From Solimonas sp. SE-A11 (GTDB lineage: Bacteria > Pseudomonadota > Gammaproteobacteria > Nevskiales > Nevskiaceae), in assembly GCF_030345715.1 (NCBI RefSeq), contig NZ_JAUASX010000024.1, positions 1 through 64,000 of the forward strand: a stretch of DNA of 64,000 bases, written 5' to 3'. Position 1 is the first letter of the stretch. Every line of letters starts with the position of its first letter. The translations under genes and the position numbers were made by a program. Shown here piece by piece: positions 4,498-18,793 of the stretch. Under the pieces are notes generated by a model. The model was not told where the DNA came from and searched no databases. It saw only the letters and a program-made list of their open reading frames with translations.

Positions 4498-5223
4498 AAG
4501 AATTCCTGTGGGCAAAGACAAGAAGAGCGGTGGCTATGGTTAGTAGCGGCCTTTCGCTAAGACGGCCCGAGTGACCCGTACTCGGTCGCTCGCTCTGAAG
4601 CACCGTCAAACTTGGCAGATGTGCTGCCTATTTCACTTAACAAACGAACGTCTGGTCGTCTATAGGGCTTACGAAGTCCGCCAATGCTGTTCACGCACGG
4701 ACTTGGATCGGCGGAGGAGCGGTTTATGTTGTCTGTGCAAGGTGATGCCTTTTGGTTTTTCAATATGCCTCCTCAGGGGCCGCGCATGGGCCGATATCCG
4801 TCAAATGGTGCCGATATTCAGTACTAGGCAGCTTCAGTAGTTGGCCCCGCCAGTCGGAACCAGGATGAATGTCATAAGAACCTCACATGTGGTCCTGAGA
4901 TGCGCCCCCTGATCATACATGCGCCGGGTGTGCGCCCCCTACCTCGCGGGTCATCGGACGCACGGGCAGCGCACAGCCTGAGCGTTGTATTGACCGGCGC
5001 CGCGGACGGAAATATCGAGGTGATGAATCTCATGAGACGATACTCCCTGACACCAAGGGTCGGTTCGAATACCCGGCTAGGCCACGCGGGCTTGCAAGCA
5101 GAGACTCATGCCTCCCGAAGCTCTCTCAGTCGCGCAAGCGCTGTACAAAATGCCCTTGATGCTTATCCGGGTTCCCAGGCTGTTGGCGTCAGCGACCGGT
5201 AGCGGCGTGGGTGTGTTCTTCGA
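4498..5223. other. Non-coding or degraded stretch
   Basis: No reading frame here has convincing protein features. Short frames exist on both strands but lack a ribosome binding site or recognisable motifs. The stretch separates the giant orphan gene from the IS remnants and from the orphan promoter box at 5224-5270. Confidence 0.4.
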
Positions 5224-5305: not shown

Positions 5306-5616
5306 CCCCCGACGTTACCCCGAGCTTGATCAGCGCCGATGTGCCTGGCGCAGCCCAGCCAGACGAAATCGAAGATATATTTATGATTTTAATGGAATTT
5401 AAGTATTATCAATCAAGCCCATTTGTCCGGTCCGCAAGAACAGACACGCGAGCCAACGTGAAAGCGCCTACTCAAATGCATCTGTTGCAATCCAAATTCT
5501 TGATATGTGCCGTCAGCGACTTAGCCTGCGTCTCGATCTGGGCGGGCTTCGTTTATCCAGCCCTCGTGATCGACGTCTTCGCGAGCCGGGTCCTCGGCTG
5601 GAAGGCGGCCCGCTGA
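5306..5616 (+). mobile_element. IS3-family remnant: left end plus OrfB fragment
   Basis: At about 5306-5335 the sequence GACGTTACCCCG followed by AGCTTGATC mirrors the right-end repeat seen inverted at ~105-123, so this is likely the left end of a related IS3-family element. Further on, a frame ending at 5616 reads CVSIWAGFVYPALVIDVF then ASRVLGWK, the catalytic-core segment of IS3 transposases around the second Asp. The intervening OrfA and most of OrfB are missing. Confidence 0.55.
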
Positions 5617-5639
5617 GTCCGATCGAATCTCGGGCTGGA

Positions 5640-6340
5640 TGCATTGGAGCAAGCTCAGTATGCGCGACGATCAGCCGCAAGCGGGTTGCGCGGCTGATGC
5701 GCAAAGCCGGCTCGCGTGGGATCAGCCGGCGGCGCGGCCATGTCGTGACCACCGGGTGGGATCGGCACCAGGGCTCGGCGCAGGACCTGGTGCGGAGGCG
5801 CTTCGCAGCCGATGGCCACAACCAGCTCTGGGTCGCCGACATGACCTACACCCCCTACCTGGGGCGGCTTCCTGTACCTGACGATGGTGCTGGACGTCTT
5901 CAGTCGCCGGGTGGTCGGCTGGGCAATGGGGAAGCAGATGACGGCCGATCTGGTCCTTGACGCGCTCAACATGGCCCTGGAGTGGCGTCGGCCCGCTAAC
6001 GTGATCCACCACAGCGACCCGGGCAGTACACCAGCATCGCCTTCGGGGAGCGTTGCCGGCAGATGGGCGTGCGCCCGTCCATGGGCATGGTCGGAGACGC
6101 CTACGATAACCCCATGGCCGAGAGCTTCTTCGCCAGCCTGGAGTGCGAACTGATTGACCACAGCAGTTTCCGCAGCAAGGCCGAGGCCCGCATCACCCCT
6201 TCACCTGGATCAAGGGCTGGTACAACCCGCGCCGTCGTCACTCGGCGCTAGGCTACCAGTCGCCCATCAACTACGAACGGAGAAACCCAACACCCGGCAA
6301 ACCACCCCTTGCAGAAGCTGCAGTCGCCGCTTGAGAATCA
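5640..6340 (+). pseudogene. IS3-family OrfB transposase, multiply frameshifted
   Basis: Pieces of one transposase lie in successive frames: KRVARLMRKAGSRGISRRRG and [12 protein letters not shown] near 5660-5860; [20 protein letters not shown] (from 5884) to [27 protein letters not shown] (from 6081); and WIKGWYNPRRRHSALGYQSP near 6205-6270. Together they cover the DDE core ([25 protein letters not shown]), but at least two or three frameshifts make it non-functional. It marks the left border of the RiPP cluster. Confidence 0.8.
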
Positions 6341-6524
6341 AGCGCACACCCGTCCGTCAGAGCGGGGCAACTCTACACACGCCTTATATGATGATTTTGG
6401 ACCCCTCGTTGCCCTGCCTCCATGTGAGGTCGCCGTTTGATCGCCGCTACCTGCGATTTCGTCAGAACTATTCGGCCGACCGTGCGCTAATTCAGTTACA
6501 GCATCCCGGTGTGACGATAGAAGA

Positions 6525-7706
6525 ATGACCATTCCTGTTGATACTCGGTATATAGGTGATGTCGAACTAGATCGCGCTAGACGATTGCTTGCGTTGCTGC
6601 TCCGAGCACGATGGACCGGGGAGCCGATCTCGGAGTCCGACACTTCCAACGTAAAGGCCGCGGCATTCTCTGCTCTATTGCGCATTCATGGCGTCGCCAG
6701 TGTGCTGGCTTTACGTCATAGTGACCAGATACATCAACTGCCGCCACAGTTGGCTGATCATGTGGTCCAAGCGCAGCGACGTGGTGTCAACGCTGCGTTA
6801 ATGCAGGCGCGTGCCTGCATTAACGTGACTCAAGCGCTTGAGCGAGCTGCTATACCGTGCCTTCCTCTCAAGGGACAAGCGCTATCCTGGCGTCTTTACG
6901 GCGCGATTGGCGCGCGCCACAGCAGTGATGTCGACCTGCTCATCGATCCCGACACGGTGCTTCCGGCCGTGGCATTCCTTTTGGATCTCGGATACTTTCC
7001 CTCAGCACCTCTTCCGCAGAATCCCCTGCATTGGCGTGAGTTGATGCGAACGCGGCATCACGCCAATTTCCGGAATGAGAGCGGCACCTATTTGGAACTT
7101 CACTGGCGGACTGAACCACTGCGCAGTACCTCGCTGCCATCATTAGCGCAATTACTCCCTGAAACTGGCATCATCGCTTCAGGTCCATTTCGCGGCCTGC
7201 GCGAACTGCCGCCGGAGCTTCTTCATAGATCCTTAGCTTGTCATGCAGCCCGTTCCCGCTGCGCCCGCTGGAAATGGGGCTACGATCTCTTAGAGATCTT
7301 TGGGGCTCAGGGCGATTCACCTTGGAATCCGCGCCTCATCGCAGCACAGCCCCCACAAATCCGCCAGGTCCTAAAAGTCATGGGGGCGCAACTTCAGGTG
7401 CCTGGCTGGCAGCGCTCGCCATCGGAAGATCTGATCTGTCGCGCTGCCGCTGTCGAGGGGCGTGAATTGCTGCGGGGTGGCGCAGGCATTGGCAGGACAT
7501 TTCGAGATGGTTTGCTTCTGCATCTCGCTGCTTGGGCGGCGCTTCAGAGCGGCGCGGCCCGCTTGGAGTATCTGGGCTGGATGCTGACGCGGATATCTTC
7601 GGACGTAGGCGATGACGCCTACTCTCTGGTGGCAAAGTGGCCTTGGCTGGCGCCGCTAGTTCGCGTCGTTGCCGCAATTCGCCGCAAGACACGCCGAAAC
7701 CGATGA
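6525..7706 (+). CDS. Nucleotidyltransferase-family protein of the RiPP cluster
   Basis: This 393-residue protein resembles the NTP_transf_5-type nucleotidyltransferases often found beside lasso-peptide, asparagine-synthetase-like and HPr-kinase-like genes. The polymerase-beta-like active site is seen at GARHSSDVDLLID (R131, paired D135 and D137), preceded by a conserved LKG (K116). The remainder is helical with no membrane segment, so it should be cytoplasmic. The substrate is unknown; nucleotidyl transfer to a peptide or a small donor is inference. The stop overlaps the start of the next gene (ATGA at 7703-7706), which indicates translational coupling. Confidence 0.8.
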   Translation: MTIPVDTRYIGDVELDRARRLLALLLRARWTGEPISESDTSNVKAAAFSALLRIHGVASVLALRHSDQIHQLPPQLADHVVQAQRRGVNAALMQARACINVTQALERAAIPCLPLKGQALSWRLYGAIGARHSSDVDLLIDPDTVLPAVAFLLDLGYFPSAPLPQNPLHWRELMRTRHHANFRNESGTYLELHWRTEPLRSTSLPSLAQLLPETGIIASGPFRGLRELPPELLHRSLACHAARSRCARWKWGYDLLEIFGAQGDSPWNPRLIAAQPPQIRQVLKVMGAQLQVPGWQRSPSEDLICRAAAVEGRELLRGGAGIGRTFRDGLLLHLAAWAALQSGAARLEYLGWMLTRISSDVGDDAYSLVAKWPWLAPLVRVVAAIRRKTRRNR

Positions 7707-9730
7707 GGCACGCCCTTAACCCCTCGCGTGATCATCAATCTCAAGGTCTCACTTACCGAAGGGAGATCGACGGCCTGCGGGCGTTGTCCATACTGGCGGT
7801 GGTGCTGTACCACGCCGGGCTTCCAGGCTTAAGCGGGGGGTTTAGGGGGGTCGACATCTTCTTCGTGATCAGTGGCTATCTGATCACGCGCATGTTGTTT
7901 GTAACCAGCTCGCAGAGGGGCATGGATCTGCGTGACTTCTATGAGCGGCGCGCGAGGCGCATCCTGCCTGCACTTGAGATGATGTTGCTCTGCAGCACGG
8001 TCGCCGCGGTGCTGCTGATGCAACCCGACGAGCTAAGGATTTTTTGCCGCGAATTGGGCGGAGCAGTACTCCTCAGCGCCAACTTCGTTTATTGGCAGAC
8101 CAGCGGCTATTTCAACCCACTGAGTGACTGGATGCCGCTGCTTCATACTTGGAGCCTGGCGGTGGAGGAGCAGTTTTACCTTCTCTGGCCGCTGCTACTG
8201 CTGCCGCTGCTGCGGATCTCCCCGCGTCGCGTGCCTGTGCTGCTGGTGGCGCTCGCTCTACTGGCGCTGATAGTGGCACAGTTACTGGATACACGTCTGC
8301 CCCGGTTGGCGTTCTACCTCCTCCCTGGTCGCGCCTGGGAGCTGCTTGCGGGTGCCTGCGTGGCAGGCATGGAGCGGCGGGGAGTGGCCCGGCCGGGGCC
8401 TCGGACTGCAATCGCCCTCAGTGGCCTCGGTTTGCTGGCGGTGTTTGCCAGCCTGCTTTGGCCGAATCCTCCTCACGGCGCTGGACTGGCTGCCCTTCCG
8501 GTAGTGCTTGGCACCGCCTTGCTGCTTCAGGCGCTCCCGGCGGCGCCGGCTTTTTCGCAATGCCTTGGCGCTGCGCCGCTCCGCTGGCTGGGGCTGTCCA
8601 GCTACAGCATATACCTCTGGCACCAGCCACTGGGAGCCTGGCTGCGCTACGCAGTTCGCGACGAGCCTCCGCTTGCTCTGCGTCTGACCGCAGCCGGACT
8701 GGCGGTGATTATCGGGCTGGCGAGCTGGCGCTGGCTGGAGCAGCCGCTGCGCGACCGTCGTCGTGTGCCACTGCGGCCCTTCCTCATCGGCATCACGGTA
8801 TCCACATTACTTCTCGCCGGATTCGCCGCAGCGGGCTTTTACACCAAGGGCTTCGAATCGCTCTTTCTGCGTTATGCCCCTACCTCGCACCAGGCAATCT
8901 ACCGAAGCCTTTCGCGAGAAGAGTATCCGCTGCTTGAAGGCCGCTGCCGCTTCATGCCACACGGTCTTGCCAATGCCACCGCAGAGCGCATCAGAGAGTG
9001 CTTCCACCTCCACGGCTCGGGACTGTTGGTGATGGGCGATTCTCGTGCTCAGGATCTCTACCGCGCCATGCTGCTAAGCAGTTCGCAGCCTTTCATCGTT
9101 GGCCTGGCTTATCCGGGATGCCAGGCCGAATGGCAGCACAAGAAATCTTGCGGCTATGATCGGCTGCTCGATCTCCTGCAGCAGCAGCCCGATAGCTTTG
9201 CCGTCGTCCTTTACACTCAGGCCGGATTTCATCTGATGAAGGACAGCAAAGATCAGCAGCCGTCTCGGAATGTGCTGGCCGATCCCCGCAGTGGTATGCG
9301 GGGCCTCAGAATCGATCCTATGCGCGTTAATGCCCAGCTCCCGCTGCTGAAGGAACTACAGCGCGCTGGCCCGCTGGTGTATTGGCTGGGTCCGCTCATG
9401 GAGCCACACCGTGACCCGCAGCAGCTGCGGAGGATGGCCCTAGATTGCTCGCCTTCCGGCAACGCCTTACGGCCGCATCTACAACAGGCATTCCAATCGC
9501 TAGATCAAAAGCTTGCCCTGCGACTCGCAAATCCGGAGGCCGCCGTTCGCTATCTGTCAGCTCAGCAGCGCATGCAGTTCGACCCGAATCGTGACGTCTT
9601 TGACTGCCGGCGACTGCTTTGGCGTGACGGAGACCACTGGAGCCCCGCTGGCGAGGTCGAATTCGGCCGCCGCCTTCTGCGGTCCCTGGCCGACGAACCG
9701 CCTCTGGCTGCGCTTCTGCCGTCCCGCTGA
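7703..9730 (+). CDS. Acyltransferase with C-terminal SGNH-like domain (OafA/YrhL type)
   Basis: I chose the ATG at 7703 because it overlaps the upstream stop as ATGA; a longer frame from 7637 would run inside the previous gene. The protein (~675 aa) starts with REIDGLRALSILAVVLYHAG, the hallmark of membrane acyltransferase family 3, and keeps FFVISGYLI, EEQFYLLWP and ~10 hydrophobic helices to residue ~370. The periplasmic C-terminal part has SGNH-like blocks: GDSRAQDLY (nucleophile Ser) and DGDHWSPAGE (catalytic Asp/His). Such proteins O-acetylate cell-surface glycans. Its role beside a RiPP cluster is unclear: it could acylate the product or be a neighbouring surface-sugar gene. Confidence 0.88.
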   Translation: MRHALNPSRDHQSQGLTYRREIDGLRALSILAVVLYHAGLPGLSGGFRGVDIFFVISGYLITRMLFVTSSQRGMDLRDFYERRARRILPALEMMLLCSTVAAVLLMQPDELRIFCRELGGAVLLSANFVYWQTSGYFNPLSDWMPLLHTWSLAVEEQFYLLWPLLLLPLLRISPRRVPVLLVALALLALIVAQLLDTRLPRLAFYLLPGRAWELLAGACVAGMERRGVARPGPRTAIALSGLGLLAVFASLLWPNPPHGAGLAALPVVLGTALLLQALPAAPAFSQCLGAAPLRWLGLSSYSIYLWHQPLGAWLRYAVRDEPPLALRLTAAGLAVIIGLASWRWLEQPLRDRRRVPLRPFLIGITVSTLLLAGFAAAGFYTKGFESLFLRYAPTSHQAIYRSLSREEYPLLEGRCRFMPHGLANATAERIRECFHLHGSGLLVMGDSRAQDLYRAMLLSSSQPFIVGLAYPGCQAEWQHKKSCGYDRLLDLLQQQPDSFAVVLYTQAGFHLMKDSKDQQPSRNVLADPRSGMRGLRIDPMRVNAQLPLLKELQRAGPLVYWLGPLMEPHRDPQQLRRMALDCSPSGNALRPHLQQAFQSLDQKLALRLANPEAAVRYLSAQQRMQFDPNRDVFDCRRLLWRDGDHWSPAGEVEFGRRLLRSLADEPPLAALLPSR

Positions 9731-9734
9731 GCGC

Positions 9735-10346
9735 TCAGGTCGGCGCAAGTTGCAAGGTGCGCAACCAAATGTTCAGCGCAAAGCGCCGCTGCTCAAAGCG
9801 ATCGTCGGTGCAGCGCACTGGAAGCACCTCGTGTGGCATCCAGGAGGCAAATGCCACGAGTCGGTCGTGGCGGCTGTCGATATCTTCGAAAGCTGCACCC
9901 ACTGGCGCATGGAAGCGAATCGCCCCGCCCTCGTAAGTCCGTGGACTCTGATGCAGGTAGTAGACCATACTCATCTGCCTGGCCCAGCGCGCGTCTTTCC
10001 CGGTGCTTGTATCAATGTGGCGGCGGTAGAAGCAGCCGTCGCCATAGGCCGTCAGTTCCAGCTCAGCGCGATAATCGGTGAAGCCAGGCATGCCCAGCGC
10101 CTGCTGCAAATCTGGAACACGTGCGGCAAAATGCTCGTAGAACAGAGTCGGCAACTCAGCGCCAATGTAGCGCAGCGCCGTGCGGGTGCCGGGAAGGAGG
10201 TGCCCACCTCCAAGAACCGCCGGCTCGAAAAGCGGCTGTCTTTTGATCGCCAGTGCGTGCAACGCGGCTGCGCGTTCGGCCCCAAGGAATCCATCGACCA
10301 CCACCTTGGAAGGAACACGCAGCAAGGCCTGTGACTGCGAGGTCAT
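9735..10346 (-). CDS. 2-oxoglutarate/Fe(II)-dependent oxygenase
   Basis: This is a cytoplasmic enzyme of ~203 aa when started at MTSQSQALL (10346); the longer frame upstream would run into the divergent B2 gene. The double-stranded beta-helix facial triad is visible: RRHIDTS (H110, D112) and MPHEVLPV (H172), followed by QRRFALNIW with the 2OG-binding Arg. It belongs to the prolyl-4-hydroxylase-like/PKHD group. It is divergent from the B2 gene with ~50 bp between starts and convergent with the acyltransferase. An iron/2OG enzyme (CanE) hydroxylates the lasso peptide canucin, so side-chain hydroxylation of the product here is a reasonable inference. Confidence 0.87.
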   Translation of the reverse strand: MTSQSQALLRVPSKVVVDGFLGAERAAALHALAIKRQPLFEPAVLGGGHLLPGTRTALRYIGAELPTLFYEHFAARVPDLQQALGMPGFTDYRAELELTAYGDGCFYRRHIDTSTGKDARWARQMSMVYYLHQSPRTYEGGAIRFHAPVGAAFEDIDSRHDRLVAFASWMPHEVLPVRCTDDRFEQRRFALNIWLRTLQLAPT

Positions 10347-10397
10347 TGGATAGCAGCTCCGAGCGAATCCGAATGACGCGCATGCTATCGTGGTGGT

Positions 10398-10847
10398 ATG
10401 CCCGACTCCAGCACCTCCCACCGTCGCCCCTGCTGGCGTAAACGATTACGAAGCCGCGTGCTGGCCGATGATCTGCTGGCCGTTGAGGCCTTAGCTGCAC
10501 TGGGTCTGGCTCGGCTGGCTCTGCTGCTGCCGTACCGGCACTACCGGCCGTGGCTCGAACTGCGGTCCGACAACCCCGGGACAGCACCCGAAATGGCGCT
10601 GCGCATCGCGCGCGCCGTGCGCCGTGCGGCTCGCGTCGCCCCTTGGTCGGCAGTCTGCCTGCCGCAAGCCATGGCGGGAAAGTTAATGCTGCAGCGGCGA
10701 AATATCGGTTGTTGCTTGGTTCTGGGGGTGGAAAACACCCAGCCCGGGATATTGCTGCATGCATGGCTGGAGGTCGACGGCAACATCATCATCGGCGCCG
10801 CAGGGGCAGATCGATGTGCTGTACTCAACCGCTATGGCAACGGATAG
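10398..10847 (+). CDS. Lasso-peptide biosynthesis B2-type protease (transglutaminase-like)
   Basis: This 149-residue protein matches the leader peptidase of lasso-peptide clusters (the C-terminal half of McjB). The cysteine-protease residues are apparent: C87 in WSAVCLPQAM, H121 in LLHAWLEVDG and an acidic residue shortly after. The N-terminus has the usual helical LADDLLAVEALAALGLARLAL segment. It should cleave the leader of the precursor encoded 121 bp downstream, guided by a PqqD-type B1 protein (two are present at 13.5 and 15.7 kb). It starts ~50 bp from the divergent oxygenase gene, so a shared bidirectional promoter region is likely. Confidence 0.88.
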   Translation: MPDSSTSHRRPCWRKRLRSRVLADDLLAVEALAALGLARLALLLPYRHYRPWLELRSDNPGTAPEMALRIARAVRRAARVAPWSAVCLPQAMAGKLMLQRRNIGCCLVLGVENTQPGILLHAWLEVDGNIIIGAAGADRCAVLNRYGNG

Positions 10848-10968
10848 CCCATTGCTATGCGGCAGTGCACAAAGTTGGGGGCTCGACGGTGAGTAATGTT
10901 TCAATTAACCTAGACTAGTTTTTGCTGCGCTACCAGATTTGTGTTTTCCGATAAGAGTAATTCAAGCC

Positions 10969-11145
10969 ATGACCCAGCAGGATCTCGATGCGGTTTCTCC
11001 GGCAGCCGCCCACGAAGAAGCAGGTACCCCCGTCCCGCAGCCACGCTGGACGACACCTAAGATCACCTCTTTCGCGCCGGTGCCTGTATCGGACGCACAG
11101 GGTGCCTCGGGCAATCCCGGTGATGGCGTTTCGAACCTCACCTGA
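10969..11145 (+). CDS. Candidate RiPP (lasso-like) precursor peptide, 58 aa
   Basis: The 58-codon gene lies between the B2 protease and the kinase. Its leader has WTTPKITSF, which fits the aromatic-x-x-P-x-aliphatic element that PqqD-type recognition proteins bind in lasso leaders. A plausible core is GASGNPGDGVSNLT (residues 45-58): Gly1 and Asp8 would allow an eight-residue macrolactam. Two things are unusual. The residue at -2 is Ala rather than the common Thr, and the six-residue tail (GVSNLT) has only Leu as a possible plug. The C-terminal Thr and the Ser residues could be targets for the kinase or sulfotransferase. Assignment rests on position, size and the leader motif; the mature structure is inference. 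Confidence 0.65.
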   Translation: MTQQDLDAVSPAAAHEEAGTPVPQPRWTTPKITSFAPVPVSDAQGASGNPGDGVSNLT

Positions 11146-11287
11146 TACTGCTCCCCCGCTGCCCCGGGAGCCGTATTGCGGGGGGCTGCGCGGCGTGGCA
11201 ATTTGGCCTCGCTAACCTGACAGCGTCTGGATTCCCTTCAGACGATTGACGGGCGGCTACTCGCTTTCTGAAGTAAATGCTTTCGTA

Positions 11288-12277
11288 ATGGCTGAGCTCT
11301 GGACCTTCGACTGCGGAGGGTTGTGCATCGAGAGTGCTTTGCCGATCCCGGGGCTACCGATGGCGGGGCCGGGCGCTGGGTCGACCGATGTTCGTATCCA
11401 CTGGCAGCTCGGAGGCGAGTGCAAACCTGGCCCCCTCGTGTTCCGTTGGGACATTAATGATGGCGCCAAGCTACATCGTGACGGCGAGGATTGGCTTTGG
11501 GCGCTCGGAAGCGGCGGCCATATCGGAGTGGACGCAACTGGCCACCGGCTGGTGTGTTACGCGGAATCACAGGAGGTCCAGGAGCGTCAAGCGGACTTCC
11601 TGGCGCGCAGCCTGCTGCCGCGCCTCTGCGCACTGAGAGGGTCGCTGGTTCTTCACGGCTCGGCGGCAGCGTATAGCGGCGCGGCGGCCGTAATCATAGG
11701 GCGTTCCGGCGCCGGCAAATCCACCCTTGCGGCGGCGCTGGCACAAGGCGGGTGGACTCTACTCAGCGACGACGCCGCCGTTCTGCTTCAGCGTCCGGGC
11801 GGGTACTTCTGCCATGTGTCTTCCGTCCAGTCTTGCCTGCTCACCGAATCTGTAACTGCCCTGAATCACGACCCGGCATCACTTAATGTGCGGCGCGCTG
11901 CCCGCGCCAAGCTATGCCTGCCGCATGCGAGTATGCCTGCGCTGCGTGAGGCGCCCGTGCGAGCGATCTGGTTCTTGGAGCAAGGGGACTCCACCATGCC
12001 GTGTCCCGAGTGGGTTCCGTTAGACCTTCCAGAAGCCCTGGCAGGGCTTTGGAACAAGCGTGCCCGTTTCAATCCCGCCGACCACGCCAATCACGCCGCT
12101 GAGTGGAAGCAAATGGCGAGTTTGCTGGCTTGTGCACCGGCATTTAGGCTCCGACTTCCACGGTCTCTCCCGCGTCTGCCGGAATCTGTCGCCTCGCTAA
12201 GCCGCGCATGGAAGGATCTGCAGCAGTCACACGATGAGAAATCCGCTTCAGAATCCTGCCTCCACCAGGGGCCATGA
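11288..12277 (+). CDS. HPr-kinase-like protein of the RiPP cluster
   Basis: The protein is ~329 aa when started at the ATG at 11288; a TTG at 11246 would add 14 residues, and neither has a strong ribosome site. It has the HprK-like P-loop GRSGAGKS (~138-145), the preceding conserved VLHGSAA (H123) and LLSDDAAVL (~158-166). The N-terminal ~100 residues are a beta-rich domain common in this subfamily. HprK homologues in lasso clusters (for example paeninodin's PadeK) phosphorylate the C-terminal Ser of the precursor. Here the candidate core ends in Thr. It sits directly downstream of the precursor and overlaps the next small frame by ATGA. Confidence 0.83.
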   Translation: MAELWTFDCGGLCIESALPIPGLPMAGPGAGSTDVRIHWQLGGECKPGPLVFRWDINDGAKLHRDGEDWLWALGSGGHIGVDATGHRLVCYAESQEVQERQADFLARSLLPRLCALRGSLVLHGSAAAYSGAAAVIIGRSGAGKSTLAAALAQGGWTLLSDDAAVLLQRPGGYFCHVSSVQSCLLTESVTALNHDPASLNVRRAARAKLCLPHASMPALREAPVRAIWFLEQGDSTMPCPEWVPLDLPEALAGLWNKRARFNPADHANHAAEWKQMASLLACAPAFRLRLPRSLPRLPESVASLSRAWKDLQQSHDEKSASESCLHQGP

Positions 12278-12399
12278 CGACTGCCAGCAGTTCGGGCCGC
12301 CGCCTGCTTTCCTGGTCCGGTGCCGTCAACGGCACGTGGAGCTCCCTAGATGGAGCCGCCCTTTCGCGCGCTGCCGGTTTTCAGCTGAGATCGGAGTGA
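12274..12399 (+). CDS. Possible small coupled ORF (41 aa) between kinase and sulfotransferase
   Basis: A 41-codon frame begins at an ATG that overlaps the kinase stop (ATGA at 12274-12277) and ends five bases before the sulfotransferase start. It would fill the only gap between those two genes. The peptide starts MTTASSSGRRLLSW and contains NGTWSSLDGAAL; no domain is recognised. It could be a second small precursor (a Gly-to-Asp spacing of seven exists at GTWSSLD) or a chance frame. The coupling at its start is the only positive evidence. Confidence 0.35.
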   Translation: MTTASSSGRRLLSWSGAVNGTWSSLDGAALSRAAGFQLRSE

Positions 12400-12403
12400 T
12401 GTC

Positions 12404-13234
12404 ATGACATCACATGAATACTCCTACGACATGGTTTCAGCCGGACATGACTACCCGGAATGGCAGGGCGCGCCGCGGCGCAGCCTGATCCTAATCTCCC
12501 ACCCTCGCTCCGGCAGCACACTGCTGGCGGAAGCTCTCCATGCAGCCGGGGGGCTTGGTAACCCTCTGGAATACCTCCATGCGGGATTCCGCCCAACGTT
12601 TGCTCGACGTTGGCAAGCGGAGTCGCTTCCGCAATATCTGACAAAGCTTCACCGCTTGCGTACGGACCCTGGGGGTACCTTGGGAATAAAACTATTCTGG
12701 CGCGACTTGCGTGAAACCGCAGTGGAGGCTGGCATCCGGTCCGACCAAGGCCCCAATCCGCCACCCGGGGGGGAGGACTACATGGCCCTGCACACACATT
12801 TGCAGCGGGTGCTACCGAATCCGGTTTTCGTCTATCTGTATCGCGAGGACCGCCTACGCGCCGCAATTTCAGCTTATATCGCGAGCAAGACGGGAGTATT
12901 CCGGGCGCTCACCCCGGAGCAGCTCCAGCGTACGCGCCGAGAGGTCGAATATGACTACGAGGGTATCCGGCAGGCGCTGGCCGCCTTCGATGCTGCCCAT
13001 GCTCATTGGCGGGCCTACTTTGCCGCGTCCGGCATCAGGCCGTTGCGCCTAAGCTACGAGGAGCTGCAGGCCGACTACCATGGCAGTGTCACCAATGTGA
13101 TTACATCCCTGGGCGGATCTGGCCAAAAATCGCTGCCCGCGCCACGGCTGACGCGTCAATCCTCGCGTCATTCGGAGACATTGCTGCTGAGGTTCCTGCG
13201 CGACCATGCGGAGAGGTGTCCTGCTTCCAACTGA
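12404..13234 (+). CDS. Stf0-type sulfotransferase
   Basis: This 276-residue cytoplasmic enzyme contains the PAPS 5'-phosphosulfate loop HPRSGSTLLAEALHAAGGLG (~33-52) followed by NPLEYLH, the pattern of Stf0-family sulfotransferases (trehalose sulfotransferase relatives). A later RLSYEELQADYHGSVTNVI resembles the conserved C-terminal block. GGAG seven bases before the ATG supports the start. It is the last gene of the rightward run and convergent with the PqqD/cyclase operon. Its acceptor may be the RiPP product, which would make a sulfated peptide, but a carbohydrate acceptor cannot be excluded. Confidence 0.85.
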   Translation: MTSHEYSYDMVSAGHDYPEWQGAPRRSLILISHPRSGSTLLAEALHAAGGLGNPLEYLHAGFRPTFARRWQAESLPQYLTKLHRLRTDPGGTLGIKLFWRDLRETAVEAGIRSDQGPNPPPGGEDYMALHTHLQRVLPNPVFVYLYREDRLRAAISAYIASKTGVFRALTPEQLQRTRREVEYDYEGIRQALAAFDAAHAHWRAYFAASGIRPLRLSYEELQADYHGSVTNVITSLGGSGQKSLPAPRLTRQSSRHSETLLLRFLRDHAERCPASN

Positions 13235-13468
13235 CGAGTGTCGGAGACCGGCTGACAACACCGCTATTCCCGGAGAATGTTCCGCCAGAAGTCCGATCTC
13301 ACCACGGCGAGCAGTGCTGGACCGGACGCTGTCGACCAGAATTTCACCTGGTCGGTTGATTGGATGATCCGGCGCGCCAAAATCTTCGGAGGCTGCGCCG
13401 GCCAGCTGGCTCCAGGATGAGTCGGCACGTCGAGGACCGGTAGTTGCTTGCAGGCGTGGGACGCCGGG
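13235..13468. other. Convergent intergenic gap
   Basis: This is the space between the ends of the sulfotransferase and of the second PqqD-like gene. I see no gene and no strong terminator hairpin. Confidence 0.4.
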
Positions 13469-13750
13469 TCAGTCAAGCTGCAAGATCAGGTCGCGCGAAA
13501 GCAAGGTCTGCAAGAAACTCTCTATCTCTTCGGTCGCAACGCTGTCGTCCATGGAGAACTGCTGTCGGGCCTCCGCGACCAGTTCTGAGACGCTTGCAGG
13601 CTGAAGCAGCCGCCGCCAGATCCAGTGGGCGCTGGCGTTGAGTTGAAACACCTCACCACTATCGCGATCCAGCACAGCGCCTCCATCCTGGATAGGAGCG
13701 TCGAGGTGCGCGTCACTACGGCGCACGTATCGCGAAATTCTTGCGGTCAT
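13469..13750 (-). CDS. PqqD-like peptide chaperone, copy 2
   Basis: This 93-residue protein has the PqqD/RRE fold signature: GGAVLDRDSGEVFQLNASAHWIW (beta strands then helix), then a helical tail VATEEIESFLQTLLSRDLI. Such domains (B1 in lasso systems) bind leader peptides and deliver them to the protease and cyclase. It starts 11 bp after the end of the cyclase gene on the same strand, so they form one operon. The cluster carries two distinct PqqD proteins, and this one differs clearly from the 15.7 kb copy. Confidence 0.85.
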   Translation of the reverse strand: MTARISRYVRRSDAHLDAPIQDGGAVLDRDSGEVFQLNASAHWIWRRLLQPASVSELVAEARQQFSMDDSVATEEIESFLQTLLSRDLILQLD

Positions 13751-13761
13751 TGAAGCGTACC

Positions 13762-15666
13762 TTATCCGCAGACAGCAGCCTGTTCAAGCCAAGTATCAAC
13801 GGCCACTACTGCCCATAGAGTTGATAGCCGCCCTGTGTCGAACGGGAAGGGGCGGCCTTTCCGTTGCCAAAGGCGATATTGCGCTACCAATGCCTCGAGG
13901 CTGTCACCCGAAACCCACCCACGCTGCACGGGCTGTAGGCGCCACGGATCGCGCTGCGCCATTCGGTCCAGCACCGCATCGGCGATCTTTGATGAGAAAT
14001 TGGCTTTGTCCTGACGATTACGGACAGGCTCCGGTAGTACATCGCGCGTGGCCTCTCGTAGTAGCCACTTGCTCACGGACTTGCCCCCAACGTGACGTCG
14101 CAGGAGGTGCCCCGGAATCTCGAACAAGTAGGCTGTTAGGCGCGGATCATGAAAGGGGTGGCGCAACTGAAGTCCTGCCTCGTCATAGAGTGCAAGAAGC
14201 GGTTCCCAGGCCATGCGGCGCCGGGCCATCACGAACGGGGCATACCGTGACTGGCCCCATAGAGTATCGGCTATAGCTGGGGTTTCTTGCGGTGCACGCT
14301 GCCAGCGTCCGGCCAGATCGACTCGGCGTGCCCAGTCCGGCTGCAGCAGCGTCGGCACTTGCAGTTGCGGGTTCAGATGTGGAAAGCACAGACGCAGGCG
14401 ATCATCGGCTTTCATCAAAGGCCTGATACCGTGTCTCCATAGGTAGAGCAGCCGGCGCGGCACGTCGTCGGCAATTCGGTCGCTGAACAGACCCTCCAAC
14501 AATTGGCCGAACTGCCCGTGTCGAAATTGACTGGCCAGGTAATTGTAGTGCCCCCCCAGCCAGTCGTCGCCGCCCTCGCCCGTTAGGACTACTCGCGGCT
14601 GTAGGGCCTTCCACTGCGGCGAAGCCGCCAGCGGGTGAGCTATGGCGGGCCGCATCGGCGGCAGCAGGAACCGGTGGGCCTCGGCTTCGGCGGTAGACCA
14701 GTCATAGGGCATAAGGCCATCAGCGATGATGGGTTCGATATGGGCCGCCTCGATGACCGCATCACTGTAGCGCGATTCGTCGCAGGCCTCGCCAGGGTAG
14801 CGCACGGTGGCCACGACCGGCATTTGGCCGCCGTCAACACGAATCAGTTGCGCTGCACGCATGACCACAGTGGATGAATCCAGCCCACCAGACAGGTGTG
14901 CGGCGACGGGGCCGGGACTATCGAGACAATCGCGCATGCCAGCATCGAAGAGGCTGCGAAAACGCTCGACATGGTCCTCTGTGCTAAGCCCGCCGAGGGA
15001 CTCTGTTTTCACGCGATGCCAATGACTCACGCGACGTCGCCCGCACACCCAATCCAGACGCGATCCGGCCGGCAAAGCATGGATGCCCTGCCAAAGCGAC
15101 CCAGTCTGAGTCACGAAGCGCATAACCATTAGCTCCGCGACGGCAGCCTCGTCGGCTCGGCGCTCCAGATTCAGGCCATTGAGCAACATACGAGCCTCGG
15201 TAGCGAATGCCAGGAGGCCCTGTGATTCGCACCAATACAGCGGTCTCCAGCCCATCGGAGAGCGCTGCAGGAGAAGGCGACGCTGGTGTCGATCCCAGAT
15301 CGCCAATGTGTAGTCGATTCCTTCCAGCTCGTGGGTCGCCATCTCGCCCCACTGCGCGAAGGCGGTTACGGCGAGCTCTGCGTCACTGCAGGCATCAGCC
15401 TTGACCTGTAGACGATGGGCAAGGTCTCGGCGATGCGAGAGGCGACCGTCGAACAAGGCCACCAGCCGTCCATCTCTCGACACAGAGACGGCGGGGGCAA
15501 CTGAATCTTCCCAAGGGCTACAGCAACGCAACAAAGCGACGGCGCCTTCGGTCCATAGTCGTGGCACGCGACCGGCCCGAACCGGTAGCCCTGAGCGAAA
15601 ACATCGCAAGGTCTCCTGATCCAGGTCACTGTAGTCTGTGCGCAGAATGCCGGCAAGGCCGGTCAT
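13762..15666 (-). CDS. Asparagine-synthetase-like macrolactam synthetase (lasso C protein)
   Basis: This protein is 634 aa. The N-terminal Ntn-like domain begins MTGLAGILR, with Thr in place of the catalytic Cys2 of glutamine-dependent asparagine synthetases, so it cannot hydrolyse glutamine. The ATP-pyrophosphatase domain carries SGGLDSS at ~259-265. This is the McjC pattern: adenylation of an Asp/Glu side chain and ring closure with the core's N-terminal amine. It is flanked by PqqD-like genes on both sides (ATGA overlap with the upstream one), an arrangement known from proteobacterial lasso clusters. Acting on Asp8 of the precursor at 10969-11145 is inference. Confidence 0.9.
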   Translation of the reverse strand: MTGLAGILRTDYSDLDQETLRCFRSGLPVRAGRVPRLWTEGAVALLRCCSPWEDSVAPAVSVSRDGRLVALFDGRLSHRRDLAHRLQVKADACSDAELAVTAFAQWGEMATHELEGIDYTLAIWDRHQRRLLLQRSPMGWRPLYWCESQGLLAFATEARMLLNGLNLERRADEAAVAELMVMRFVTQTGSLWQGIHALPAGSRLDWVCGRRRVSHWHRVKTESLGGLSTEDHVERFRSLFDAGMRDCLDSPGPVAAHLSGGLDSSTVVMRAAQLIRVDGGQMPVVATVRYPGEACDESRYSDAVIEAAHIEPIIADGLMPYDWSTAEAEAHRFLLPPMRPAIAHPLAASPQWKALQPRVVLTGEGGDDWLGGHYNYLASQFRHGQFGQLLEGLFSDRIADDVPRRLLYLWRHGIRPLMKADDRLRLCFPHLNPQLQVPTLLQPDWARRVDLAGRWQRAPQETPAIADTLWGQSRYAPFVMARRRMAWEPLLALYDEAGLQLRHPFHDPRLTAYLFEIPGHLLRRHVGGKSVSKWLLREATRDVLPEPVRNRQDKANFSSKIADAVLDRMAQRDPWRLQPVQRGWVSGDSLEALVAQYRLWQRKGRPFPFDTGRLSTLWAVVAVDTWLEQAAVCG

Positions 15667-15950
15667 GCCGAACTCTCGACTCCAGATACCAGAAGGCCGA
15701 GCTCAAGCGCCCGTGCAATGAACTGCTCTACCTCAATAGCGAGCTGCCCTCCTGACTCCGGAAAGCGGATTTGCAGGGCCGCTACCACCTGTGCTGGCTC
15801 ACCCCATTCGCCGATCAACTCCCATATCGCCGACCCGCTGGCATTCAGGGCGTGATAGCTGCCGTTGCGCGTATCGAACAGTACCAATTCGCTCCCGGCG
15901 GCATTCCAGTACACCCACGAAGCGGGGCGAAAAGACACTCGGGAGGTCAT
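15663..15950 (-). CDS. PqqD-like peptide chaperone, copy 1
   Basis: This 95-residue protein heads the leftward operon; its stop overlaps the cyclase start as ATGA. The sequence ELVLFDTRNGSYHALNASGSAIWELIGEWG is the standard PqqD/RRE beta-hairpin plus helix, followed by a helical C-terminus (LAIEVEQFIARALELGLLV). It is expected to bind the leader motif WTTPKI of the precursor. Having two PqqD proteins suggests separate partners, for example one for cleavage or cyclisation and one for tailoring, or two substrates. That division of labour is speculation. Confidence 0.85.
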   Translation of the reverse strand: MTSRVSFRPASWVYWNAAGSELVLFDTRNGSYHALNASGSAIWELIGEWGEPAQVVAALQIRFPESGGQLAIEVEQFIARALELGLLVSGVESSA

Positions 15951-16058: not shown

Positions 16059-16355
16059 TCAGTTGAAAATTGCCTGGTAACGCATTTGTCCGGAGTGCGG
16101 CGCGGGTCCCAGCGGCACCACAAAAAGTACTTGAGGTGGCAGCTGTGCATGATGAAGGCGGAAATTCCCCTGAGGCCAATGCGGACGAACCGGGCTCTCG
16201 AAAACCAGACTGAACGGCTCACGGCTGCCAGGATACCCCCTCCCCTGCAAAAGAGCCACGCATTCCACCAGTACCAACGGCAGGAACAGGCCCTCGGCGG
16301 ACTCCAGTTCAAAGGCTTGCCCCACGCAAGGACTAAGCGTTTCGCGACTCAGCAT
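16059..16355 (-). CDS. DUF6916-like small protein
   Basis: The protein is ~98 aa with the ATG at 16355; GAGGAGG lies ten bases upstream and decides this start. The sequence (QAFELESAEGLFLPLVLVEC, then FSLVFESPVRPHWPQGNFRLHH, then a closing RYQAIFN) has the pattern of DUF6916 proteins, which are small, beta-rich and usually encoded next to MdpB-like tail-collar genes. The function is unknown. It is divergent from the three tail-collar genes that follow and sits ~100 bp from the PqqD operon, linking the two clusters physically. Confidence 0.75.
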   Translation of the reverse strand: MLSRETLSPCVGQAFELESAEGLFLPLVLVECVALLQGRGYPGSREPFSLVFESPVRPHWPQGNFRLHHAQLPPQVLFVVPLGPAPHSGQMRYQAIFN

Positions 16356-16412
16356 TTTAAACAAGCCTCCTCTATTCCTGTGACGGCAACCTAGTACTCG
16401 GCGGGGTAACAG

Positions 16413-16442
16413 TTGACAAATTACTTCGACTACTTGTCTATG
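16413..16442 (+). promoter_or_regulatory. Putative sigma70-like promoter of the tail-collar operon
   Basis: A perfect TTGACA lies at 16413-16418 in the only AT-rich gap of this area. An 18-bp spacer leads to TCTATG (16437-16442), a weak -10; TATGGTATAC overlaps it. The first tail-collar start codon follows at 16518. Confidence 0.4.
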
Positions 16443-16517
16443 GTATACAGTTGCGGTAGCACAAACAGGACACGCCTGTTAGTCAAAATTTGTAATCGAA
16501 AACGTACGGGGGTACTT

Positions 16518-17033
16518 ATGGATCCATTTTTGGGTGAGGTACGAATCTTTGGCTTTGACTTCCAACCTAGGGGTTGGGCCCTTTGCGATGGTCAGCTGAT
16601 GCCCGTCAAACAGAACCAAGCTCTATTTACTCTGCTAGGGAAAGCGTTTGGAGGAGATGGAGTCAACAATTTCGCACTGCCGGACTTGCGTGGCCGAGTA
16701 GCGGTGGGCGTGGCTGAGAATGCGCCGATGGGCAAAGCAGGTGGTTTCGAGACAATTGGCTTAACCTCATCCCAGATGCCGGCGCATAGTCATCCGGCGA
16801 AAGCCTTTAATCAGGATGCCAATCAAGGATCCCCAGGCAATGGTACTTTCGCCGCTACCCAGGAGTCGGAGGCCTTCCCAATCTATGCAACTGAAGGCAG
16901 TCTGACCGCGGTCGATCCCGGAACGGTCGCGCCGAACTTTCCCGGTACTGTCGCGCCGCACTCGAACATGCAGCCCTACCTCGTCACCAGCTACGCCATC
17001 GCGCTAACCGGCGCGTTTCCGCTGCGGTCGTAA
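16518..17033 (+). CDS. Tail-collar (MdpB-like) protein 1
   Basis: The protein is 171 aa from the ATG at 16518, preceded by a GGGGG ribosome site. It opens MDPFLGEVRIFGFDFQPRGW then ALCDGQLMPV, and keeps LFTLLGKAFGGDGVNNFALP then DLRGRVAVG, the signature of the phage tail-collar domain found in stand-alone microcystin-dependent-protein (MdpB) homologues. There is no signal peptide. Such triplets occur widely in proteobacterial chromosomes outside prophages; their real function is not established. It is first of three tandem paralogues. Confidence 0.85.
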   Translation: MDPFLGEVRIFGFDFQPRGWALCDGQLMPVKQNQALFTLLGKAFGGDGVNNFALPDLRGRVAVGVAENAPMGKAGGFETIGLTSSQMPAHSHPAKAFNQDANQGSPGNGTFAATQESEAFPIYATEGSLTAVDPGTVAPNFPGTVAPHSNMQPYLVTSYAIALTGAFPLRS

Positions 17034-17069
17034 GCCACCAGACTCGCTTCTTGGGGGGAGAATAACAAA

Positions 17070-17621
17070 ATGTCGGACCCTTATATCGGTGAAATTCGCT
17101 TATTTGGCGGTGACTATGCACCTCCTAATTGGGCATTGTGTCAGGGGCAACTGCTGCCAATTTCGGATTACGACGTCCTGTATAACCTAATCGGCACCCG
17201 TTATGGTGGCGATGGCGTTACCAACTTTGCTTTACCCGACCTTCGAGGACGAGCTCCAGTGCACCAGGGCGCCGGCCCCGGCTTGACTCTGCGAGTGATG
17301 GGTGAGCAAGGAGGTCTTGAGGATGTAACCTTGACGCACAATCAGATTCCGTCGCATCAGCATGCGTTCATGGCATCGACATCAGTAGCGTCTGACCGGC
17401 AACCATCCAAGACTCGGTTACTAGGAGCGGTAAGCAATACGACAGACGGCAGGCGGCGAGTGCTGTACCTGCCGAATACGGTAACTGGCCGTACCGACCT
17501 CGAGATCAGTCCGTTGGCTCTCGCACCGGTCGGAGGTGGGCAGCCGCATGCGAACCTCATGCCCTCCCTAGTGGTGAGTTTCATCATTTGCGTGAATGGC
17601 CTCTATCCTTCGCATTTCTGA
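17070..17621 (+). CDS. Tail-collar (MdpB-like) protein 2
   Basis: This 183-residue paralogue has a strong GGGGGGAG ribosome site eight bases before the ATG. The collar-domain blocks are PYIGEIRLFGGDYAPPNWAL, LYNLIGTRYGGDGVTNFALP and DLRGRAPVHQG, ending in a hydrophobic LMPSLVVSFIICVNGLYPSHF. The middle (residues ~115-150) differs from its neighbours, so the three proteins share a scaffold but have distinct variable loops, as expected for subunits of one assembly. Confidence 0.85.
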   Translation: MSDPYIGEIRLFGGDYAPPNWALCQGQLLPISDYDVLYNLIGTRYGGDGVTNFALPDLRGRAPVHQGAGPGLTLRVMGEQGGLEDVTLTHNQIPSHQHAFMASTSVASDRQPSKTRLLGAVSNTTDGRRRVLYLPNTVTGRTDLEISPLALAPVGGGQPHANLMPSLVVSFIICVNGLYPSHF

Positions 17622-17638
17622 TTTCGGAGCATGTGAAT

Positions 17639-18208
17639 ATGGATCCTTTTGTTGGCGAAATCCGGGCGTTTAGCTTCAACTTTCCGCCCACCGACTGGGC
17701 GCTGTGCAACGGGCAATTGCTTGCCATCAACCAAAATACGTCGTTGTTTACAATCCTAGGAACAACCTTCGGTGGCGACGGTAAGTCGACGTTCGGGCTG
17801 CCGAACTTTTCCGGCCGGACACCCGTAGGAGTTGGCGCCGGTCCCGGGCTGACAAAGCGCATATTGGGCGAGCAGTTTGGCAAGCAAGCTGAGACACTAA
17901 CCGAGGCGCAGATTCCGCCGCATAGCCATCGGGTCATCGCCTCGACCGTTACCACGCCAAGCGTCCCCAATATGGTGGCCGCCCCGGCCAGCAACGTACG
18001 CCTGTCACGCGCATTCACGCTGCCCGCGACCACGGGCGGTAGCCCAACTTCGACGCGGAACTACTCGTCTGTCGGAACCGTGGATACCGAACTTGCACCT
18101 TCGGCCATCGGCTTAACCGGCAGCGATCAGCCACATGAAAATCAGCAGCCGTTCCTTGTATTGAACTACTGCATTGCCCTGAAGGGTATCTGGCCACTAC
18201 GTCAGTAA
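17639..18208 (+). CDS. Tail-collar (MdpB-like) protein 3
   Basis: This 189-residue third paralogue starts MDPFVGEIRAFSFNFPPTDW (ATG 17639, CGGAG upstream); a longer in-frame start would overlap the previous gene. It contains ALCNGQLLAINQNTSLFTIL, GTTFGGDGKSTFGLPNFSGR and the C-terminal QPFLVLNYCIALKGIWPLRQ. The spacing of 17 bp from gene 2 and 9 bp to the GNAT gene supports one operon. Confidence 0.85.
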   Translation: MDPFVGEIRAFSFNFPPTDWALCNGQLLAINQNTSLFTILGTTFGGDGKSTFGLPNFSGRTPVGVGAGPGLTKRILGEQFGKQAETLTEAQIPPHSHRVIASTVTTPSVPNMVAAPASNVRLSRAFTLPATTGGSPTSTRNYSSVGTVDTELAPSAIGLTGSDQPHENQQPFLVLNYCIALKGIWPLRQ

Positions 18209-18217
18209 CGACTGATC

Positions 18218-18793
18218 GTGCCAGGCCTGAATTACCCCCGACCTTTGACCGAAGCCTGCCTTGAGGCCCTGGCCTTGGCCTGGCGTCCGGAGGTCGGGGG
18301 GGACTATCCGTTTCTTGAAAGCTTGTACATCGACACGCGCTGGGACGAGTTTGCAGCACTTGGTTGGCCGGAGGCGCCACTACGGGCCTTTCTCGCCAGC
18401 CAGTTCGCGGCTCAGTGCCGTCACTACGCACAAGCCTACAGGGACGTTTCGGCGTTTCGAATTCTGCTGCACGATGGACGACCGATAGGCCGTCTTTACC
18501 TCTATGATGCCCCCATGGACAGTCGCATTATAGACATCACCCTAGTCGCGTCATGTCGCGGCAAGGGCATTGGAAGGACACTGCTTTGCGCTCTGATTGC
18601 CGACGCGAGGGCGACCAGTAGGACTGTTAGCATCCACGTAGAGAGCAACAATCCGGCACGCCGCCTTTACGACCGGCTAGGGTTTCAAGAGGCAGCGGAG
18701 GCACATCCGCCTTACTTACTTATGCAAACGCAGCTGGCGAAGTCCGTGATCGAGGCAAGCATCAGTCAGGCGCGAGGACCGACGGGTTGCTGA
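18218..18793 (+). CDS. GNAT-family N-acetyltransferase
   Basis: The protein is 191 aa from a GTG at 18218, nine bases after the third collar gene. The acetyl-CoA loop is RGKGIGRTLLCALIADAR, preceded by the beta strand IIDITLVAS and followed by VSIHVESNNPARRLYDRLGF, all canonical for GNAT. GNAT genes recur at the end of MdpB-like triplets, so modification of the collar proteins is plausible but unproven. An IS remnant lies just downstream. Confidence 0.85.
   Translation: MPGLNYPRPLTEACLEALALAWRPEVGGDYPFLESLYIDTRWDEFAALGWPEAPLRAFLASQFAAQCRHYAQAYRDVSAFRILLHDGRPIGRLYLYDAPMDSRIIDITLVASCRGKGIGRTLLCALIADARATSRTVSIHVESNNPARRLYDRLGFQEAAEAHPPYLLMQTQLAKSVIEASISQARGPTGC

Follow-up and report, generated by a model that had tools for sequence, protein, structure and literature searches.

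Genes of the cluster and its left edge

The window analysed here, a 64,000-nucleotide stretch of Solimonas sp. SE-A11 (assembly GCF_030345715.1, contig NZ_JAUASX010000024.1, positions 1 to 64,000), carries what is probably a lasso-peptide cluster of the kinase type, extended by tailoring genes. On the best reading, its core is intact and one edge is truncated. The initial annotation had named a lasso core, a kinase, a nucleotidyltransferase (NTase), an acyltransferase, a sulfotransferase and a 2-oxoglutarate (2OG) oxygenase; Pfam and NCBIfam profile searches recovered all of its genes at the positions it had given, with family matches and with conserved catalytic motifs in the aligned genes. 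The leader peptidase B2 (10398–10847, plus strand) scored 86 bits against NF033537 (cut-off 33) and 76 bits against Transglut_core3, and motif alignment showed that its catalytic Cys and His are kept. The macrolactam cyclase C (13762–15666, minus strand) matched Asn_synthase with 97 bits together with GATase_7 and has intact ATP motifs (SGGLDSS and GEGGDD), while its best NCBIfam match, lass_lactam_cya, gave 194 bits, below a strict cut-off of 525. Its closest relative is a broken cyclase on contig 13 of the same genome (35%); searches of genus, family, order and class gave a sole class match at 30%, and those of plasmids, named genomes and viral contigs gave no close relative beyond the own genome. 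Two PqqD proteins, B1a (15663–15950, minus strand, PF05402 51 bits) and B1b (13469–13750, minus strand, 57 bits), exceed the Pfam cut-off and supply the RRE (recognition element for ribosomally synthesized and post-translationally modified peptides, RiPPs). Both had been counted in the core lasso set, which is inaccurate, as most loci examined show one RRE per cyclase. The genes B1a, C and B1b are closely packed in one minus-strand operon running from 15950 to 13469, the plus-strand order is B2, the precursor gene A1, kinase, a 41-aa open reading frame (ORF) and the Stf0 sulfotransferase gene, and the oxygenase gene diverges from B2. The 41-aa ORF (12274–12399, plus strand) overlaps the kinase stop codon and is a reading frame only, with no Pfam match. 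A possible minus-strand peptide at 13264–13476 was dropped as a precursor because it has no proper motif. B2, cyclase and RRE together with an HprK-like kinase and an NTP_transf_5 protein constitute the known kinase-type lasso architecture of paeninodin, SyanA, pseudomycoidin and Bsf.

The bounds first assigned to the cluster, 6525–15950, proved too narrow on the left, where it extends to a truncated family 2 glycosyltransferase (GT2) gene beside a degenerate transposase. The 43-aa C-terminal GT2 remnant (6394–6528, plus strand) matches the GT2 of a congener, G049, at 64% (E 4e-14) and that of contig 13 at 56%; positions 6394–6522 align to the last 43 residues of the GT2s that precede the NTase gene in both clusters. 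Adjoining it at 5480–6260 (plus strand) are fragmentary DDE-transposase-like frames, recognised by eye as a degenerate IS3-type remnant, and no full second copy of this transposase was found in the genome. Contig 13 carries a relict paralogous cluster (L006, 8008–16378) with a broken cyclase, an RRE, a W-type precursor (core GNGGAGFDFASESSV), a kinase, a FAD-binding protein, an ATP-binding cassette (ABC) exporter, a GT2 and an NTP_transf_5 protein. Its cyclase has an internal stop, SDGRNS in place of SGGxDS, and large deletions, and no B2 was found near it. Such damage raises the possibility that the window cluster is also decaying, an insertion sequence (IS)-linked deletion having removed exporter and glycosyltransferase, so that the remainder yields no finished or only cell-bound product. 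The two remnants, the lack of an ABC gene and the state of the paralogous cluster all agree with this explanation, yet the genes left in the window cluster all retain open frames along with conserved motifs, the NTase and acyltransferase genes are still translationally coupled, and the window and contig-13 loci could complement each other. We regard decay as rather unlikely. Further lasso loci of this genome lie on contigs 1 and 29. The contig-1 locus (L059, 7145–14765) has at least three YxxPxL precursors, with two near-tandem copies 79% identical, and that of contig 29 (L057) is one locus kept in three congeneric species (also L056 and L058), with the precursor MKSYIKPVLVKLGTLALIKSNSTGPSSDGKQYAGFFK, apparently bearing Ile at −2.

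Precursor A1 and a probable second precursor

Precursor A1 (58 aa; 10969–11145, plus strand) sits between B2 and the kinase and consists of the leader MTQQDLDAVSPAAAHEEAGTPVPQPRWTTPKITSFAPVPVSDAQ, ending in PRWTTPKITSFAPVPVSDAQ, and the core GASGNPGDGVSNLT. We compared it with a precursor pattern of (Y/W)xxPx(L/V/I), usually Thr at −2, G/A/S/C at position 1 and D/E at 7–9. The leader motif WTTPKI, of the RRE-binding WxxPxI type, and the G1/D8 pair fit, with Ala at −2 instead of the usual Thr. The core resembles that of BsfA (GTSGNEVDGSTPADRGNNPGD, G-T-S-G-N-E-V-D-G), in which phosphorylation of Ser3 has been shown (PMC10368454). Because the BsfA core and the contig-13 sister precursor (TQTQ/GNGGAGFD at the cleavage site), as well as other precursors of the genus, fix the cleavage frame, the predicted ring of A1 joins G1 to D8 (GASGNPGD-GVSNLT), with Ser3 and Pro6 inside it. 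Pro6 is the sole proline, there is no Tyr, and the C-terminal residue is Thr14.

The initial annotation recognised this single precursor, and there are probably two. A2 (68 aa; 4557–4763, minus strand), whose leader ends in KPYRRPDVRLLSEIGSTS before the core AKFDGASERATEYGSLGPS, starts at a TTG preceded by a GAGGAGG Shine-Dalgarno sequence. It fits every element of the strict precursor pattern, with a YxxPxV leader, Thr at −2 and an A1/E8 pair; it ends in Ser and has a single Tyr (Tyr13). The strict pattern is expected in 0.22 ORFs per 64 kb of Markov sequence, and its matches in 1.9 Mb of fetched DNA were mostly precursors at lasso loci. The homology of A2 is weak: tblastn with the contig-13 precursor found it with E 4.6e-4 in a 7-kb target, a match not significant in a larger target, and a search of 100 genomes yielded no relative. 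Its C-terminal GPS resembles that of the contig-1 precursors and of the G049 precursor. Taken together, we are fairly confident that A2 is a real precursor. A 1315-aa ORF with no Pfam match (574–4521, minus strand) begins 36 bases past A2 on the same strand.

The YxxP leader of A2 and the WxxP leader of A1 may explain the presence of two RREs. In Bacillota, two RREs paired with W- and Y-type leaders mark loci that encode a lasso peptide plus a linear polyphosphorylated-type peptide (LPP) (PMC13381572), and the divergence of B1a and B1b (25% identical) would suit two RiPP systems, each with its own precursor and RRE. The window cluster has only one kinase and one NTase, however, and both cyclase and B2, neither of which is present in an LPP system; the Thr at −2 and the Ala/Glu pair of A2 fit a lasso ring. 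Profiles and a tree of B1a and B1b against W- and Y-type precursors did not separate the two types, and both branches are very long. No signal-peptidase-I-like LppS was recognised among the annotated cluster genes, in which no search aimed at LppS was made. Two systems at this locus appear improbable.

Tailoring genes and their recurrence

Returning to a kinase-type lasso cluster, the kinase (11288–12277, plus strand; alternative TTG start at 11246, 11288 being the better one) matched TIGR04352 (HprK_rel_A) with 40.5 bits, beneath family cut-offs (200 for HprK_rel_A). BsfK needs a His, a GxxGxGKS motif and a DD pair (PMC10368454), and the kinase carries all of them (LVLHGS, GRSGAGKST and SDD, with the conserved His, P-loop Lys/Ser and Asp-Asp). 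Peptide phosphorylation is well supported. The NTP_transf_5 protein (6525–7706, plus strand; PF14907 103 bits) belongs to the PsmN-like family found in pseudomycoidin-type clusters and has intact motifs. It is 65% to a G049 homologue adjoining B2, ABC and GT2 genes; plasmid searches with NTase and kinase gave distant matches only. PsmN glycosylates a phosphorylated lasso Ser (PMC9266682). As first proposed, the NTase gene is coupled to that of a membrane O-acyltransferase with AT3 and SGNH domains (7703–9730, plus strand; PF01757 119 bits, PF19040 38 bits), the two overlapping by ATGA. The Stf0-family sulfotransferase (12404–13234, plus strand; PF09037 99 bits) has an intact PRSGST motif and its nearest solved structure is the Stf0 sulfotransferase 1TEX (E 2.6e-15). 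Against the trehalose 2-sulfotransferase equivalog NF047724 it scored 91 bits (cut-off 400), so it shares the superfamily of that enzyme and likely acts on a different substrate. The oxygenase (9735–10346, minus strand, 10346 being the better start; PF13640 70 bits) keeps its HxD, H and R residues, and its best PDB matches, 4iw3 (1.7e-7), EGLN1 and P4H, are prolyl hydroxylases. From these families we infer that the peptide is also glycosylated, hydroxylated, sulfated and acylated. Stf0 is a candidate for acting directly on the peptide, though this is no more likely than sulfation of a sugar attached to the phosphate. The affinity of the oxygenase to prolyl hydroxylases, the probable second precursor, the lost GT2 and exporter and the relict sister cluster had all gone unforeseen in the initial annotation.

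Co-occurrence of the tailoring genes with the lasso core in related genomes, proposed earlier as a check, was seen for kinase and NTase, and by enzyme class for sulfotransferase and oxygenase, and not for Stf0 itself, whose best relatives lie in non-lasso loci. Among 60 B2 loci of Sphingomonadaceae, 17 have a kinase gene, an NTP_transf_5 gene or both, rates being biased since the first 20 loci were picked for short B2 proteins. Detection was by similarity to references in hand and excludes two P-loop pattern matches; the reference matches for sulfotransferase (1) and oxygenase (3) were confined to those 17 loci, with none in roughly 40 others. In the sphingomonad G1007 (L114/L192), the tight operon K-ST1-B1-C-B2, which is not truncated, has a Sulfotransfer_1 gene flanked by those of kinase and RRE. 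The congener G049 (L053/L060) has the operon K2-B1-ST1-precursor-AspH-ST3, with genes for a lasso-type cyclase, B2, NTase, GT2 and ABC nearby; the precursor core has no Asp or Glu at positions 7–9, so the peptide made there may not be a lasso. A 45% homologue of the oxygenase lies in a lasso locus of G922 (L116) beside RRE, B2, kinase and cyclase, oxygenase-class genes occur at lasso loci of G876 and G1007 too, and membrane-bound O-acyltransferase (MBOAT) genes adjoin NTase/B2 genes in three loci. A published list of families in Pontixanthobacter/Allopontixanthobacter gives consecutive numbers to B2, nucleotidyltransferase, sulfotransferase, aspartyl beta-hydroxylase, sulfotransferase, PqqD, Asn synthase and glycosyltransferase (PMC10040529), and this numbering alone suggests that they are adjacent. 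Two loci show other features: in G1007 (L218, 9991–10634) three W-type precursor-like ORFs follow in series after ABC-NTase-B2, and in G219 (L013, 8321–17216) the lasso-type order is B2, C, kinase, radical-SAM-like gene, RRE, ABC and NTase, the radical-SAM-like gene (a judgement from sequence) being unusual between kinase and RRE.

Sulfotransferase, oxygenase and acyltransferase could, on the other hand, act elsewhere, on a surface polysaccharide or small molecule, as mere neighbours of a peptide that is just phosphorylated and glycosylated. Searches of the class, of plasmids and of 84,980 named genomes gave 2 and 23 Stf0 relatives; no lasso neighbour was seen at those examined gene by gene, G117 and 11 of the 23 loci. 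Pairs of hydroxylase (AspH) and sulfotransferase genes likewise occur where lasso genes are absent, next to TonB receptors or to the Mdp module of collar proteins. By contrast, Stf0 lies downstream of the kinase on its strand, separated from it by the 41-aa ORF alone, sulfotransferases of other families lie inside kinase/RRE operons of two genomes, one including the precursor, and a lasso locus elsewhere again has a homologue of the oxygenase. We consider the neighbours-only explanation possible but doubtful.

The third sulfotransferase and second hydroxylase of G049 are of types found with the Mdp module elsewhere. No lasso genes were seen near relatives of its Sulfotransfer_3 enzyme in Asticcacaulis, Diaphorobacter, Eleftheria, G096 and G519, and this family is therefore not lasso-specific. 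At L167, L171, L180 and L074 (9869–14819), genes for an aspartyl/asparaginyl hydroxylase and a sulfotransferase are paired next to Mdp or TonB-receptor genes where lasso genes are lacking; these pairs form a putative hydroxylation/sulfation module. Mdp (phage-tail-collar) genes with GNAT and/or DUF6916 genes directly adjoin kinase/NTase-type lasso clusters in four genomes: the window (16059–18793), G049 (L053, 3545–6180), G922 (L116, 3676–5770) and G1007 (L218, 2013–6493). In Sphingomonadaceae, Mdp genes with DUF6916 are mostly free-standing, and their presence at 2 of the 17 kinase/NTase loci appears to exceed chance, for which a rough expectation is about 0.02. The adjacency does recur, but we rejected Mdp, DUF6916 and GNAT genes as part of the cluster because the DUF6916 set usually stands free.

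Proposed pathway and comparison with known systems

In the pathway that we infer for the kinase-type cluster, including its order and export in trans, an RRE would bind the W/YxxPx(I/V) leader motif of A1. On the linear precursor, the kinase would phosphorylate a core Ser or Thr, the candidates being Ser3, the site used in BsfA, and Thr14, the C-terminal residue, on the model of SyanK/PadeK; Pro6 would be hydroxylated by the prolyl-hydroxylase-like oxygenase. B2 would then remove the leader and C join G1 to D8, after which the NTP_transf_5 protein, ancestrally with GT2, would attach a sugar to the phosphate in the manner of PsmN. Stf0 and the AT3/SGNH protein may finally decorate the sugar, or Stf0 may sulfate a core hydroxyl directly, on Ser/Thr or on Tyr13 of A2. 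Because PsmN acts on phosphorylated Ser, the Stf0 family consists of carbohydrate sulfotransferases and glycans are the usual substrates of AT3/SGNH acyltransferases, the simplest coherent order is phosphate, sugar, then sulfate and acyl group on the sugar. A2, of the YxxP type, would share the cyclase, and two RREs may sort both precursors. Next to the transposase remnant the ABC gene is absent, as is most of GT2, so export must come from elsewhere; the contig-13 ABC and GT2 would be the obvious candidates, the cyclase there being itself broken.

Several observations weigh against this pathway. The Ala at −2 of A1 departs not only from Thr but also from Ile and Val, the rarer alternatives in lasso precursors (PMC10368454), and its Trp lies at −18 rather than at about −17 to −15. 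Stf0 is not conserved in the lasso loci examined, sphingomonad clusters with a sulfotransferase or 2OG enzyme have no NTase, and the combined set was seen in this genus only. The AT3-SGNH protein could serve an envelope polysaccharide. The left edge is truncated: most of GT2 is gone, as is the ABC exporter gene, which lies upstream of GT2 in the contig-13 and G049 clusters, leaving no exporter gene in the cluster. No product of the cluster is known. It remains speculative that sulfated, prolyl-hydroxylated, phosphate-linked lasso peptides exist, that at least three sulfotransferase families (Stf0, Sulfotransfer_1 and Sulfotransfer_3) were independently recruited into kinase-type RiPP operons, and that one cyclase here serves W- and Y-leader precursors sorted by two RREs. 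Calculated [M+H]+ values are 1227.560 for lasso A1, 1243.555 with one hydroxyl, 1307.526 for the phosphorylated and 1307.517 for the sulfated form (9.5 mDa apart), 1469.579 for phospho-hexosyl and 1549.536 for phospho-hexosyl-sulfo A1, and 1924.904 for lasso A2. Recurring operons of sulfotransferase, kinase and RRE open lasso sulfation to tests in which substrates, sites and masses are all defined, and the layout of two precursors, two RREs and one cyclase would test whether the Bacillota W/Y leader code sorts precursors within one lasso pathway.

No description of a sulfated lasso peptide was found in the open-access literature searched, subscription journals being mostly outside its scope. 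A sulfotransferase gene adjoining a lasso cluster of Bacillota has been noted in the literature, and not studied (PMC8498205, citing Zhu 2016). The nearest sulfated RiPP is RaxX (PMC9484694), which shares a dedicated sulfotransferase (RaxST) but is not a lasso peptide and is sulfated on Tyr, a residue absent from A1 and present once in A2. The Bsf cluster of Bradymonas sediminis (BsfA/B1/B2/K; PMC10368454) shares separate B1 and B2, an HprK-like kinase and an N gene in the type cluster, and BsfA shares with A1 the core G-x-S-G-N-x-x-D-G and a non-Thr residue at −2. It differs in having one RRE and no described sulfotransferase, 2OG oxygenase or acyltransferase, and its leader has Ile at −2 and YxxPxL where A1 has Ala and WxxPxI. 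Paeninodin and SyanA share kinase, split B1/B2 and cyclase, and the paeninodin leader is W-type; they carry the phosphate on a C-terminal Ser and have no hydroxylase, whereas A1 ends in Thr and A2 in Ser. Pseudomycoidin shares a kinase (PsmK) and a nucleotidyltransferase-family protein (PsmN), which yield phospho-hexosyl Ser, but has no Stf0, oxygenase or acyltransferase, and the window cluster ancestrally had a GT2 beside the NTase. At the G1007 and G049 loci, too, one operon holds kinase, RRE and sulfotransferase genes, with cyclase and B2 inside it or close by, and an ATP-grasp_ST relative lies near both; their sulfotransferases are Sulfotransfer_1/3 rather than Stf0, and their oxygenases belong to TPR-2OG or Asp/Asn hydroxylase families. 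Canucin shares a 2OG hydroxylase in a lasso cluster, but CanE targets a C-terminal Asp whereas the window oxygenase is prolyl-hydroxylase-like. The tailoring classes are known singly or in part around lasso clusters, as kinase, nucleotidyltransferase, hydroxylase and nearby sulfotransferase gene; what is unusual here is that the cluster has genes predicted to add sulfate and hydroxyl groups, probably a second precursor, and damage at its left edge.

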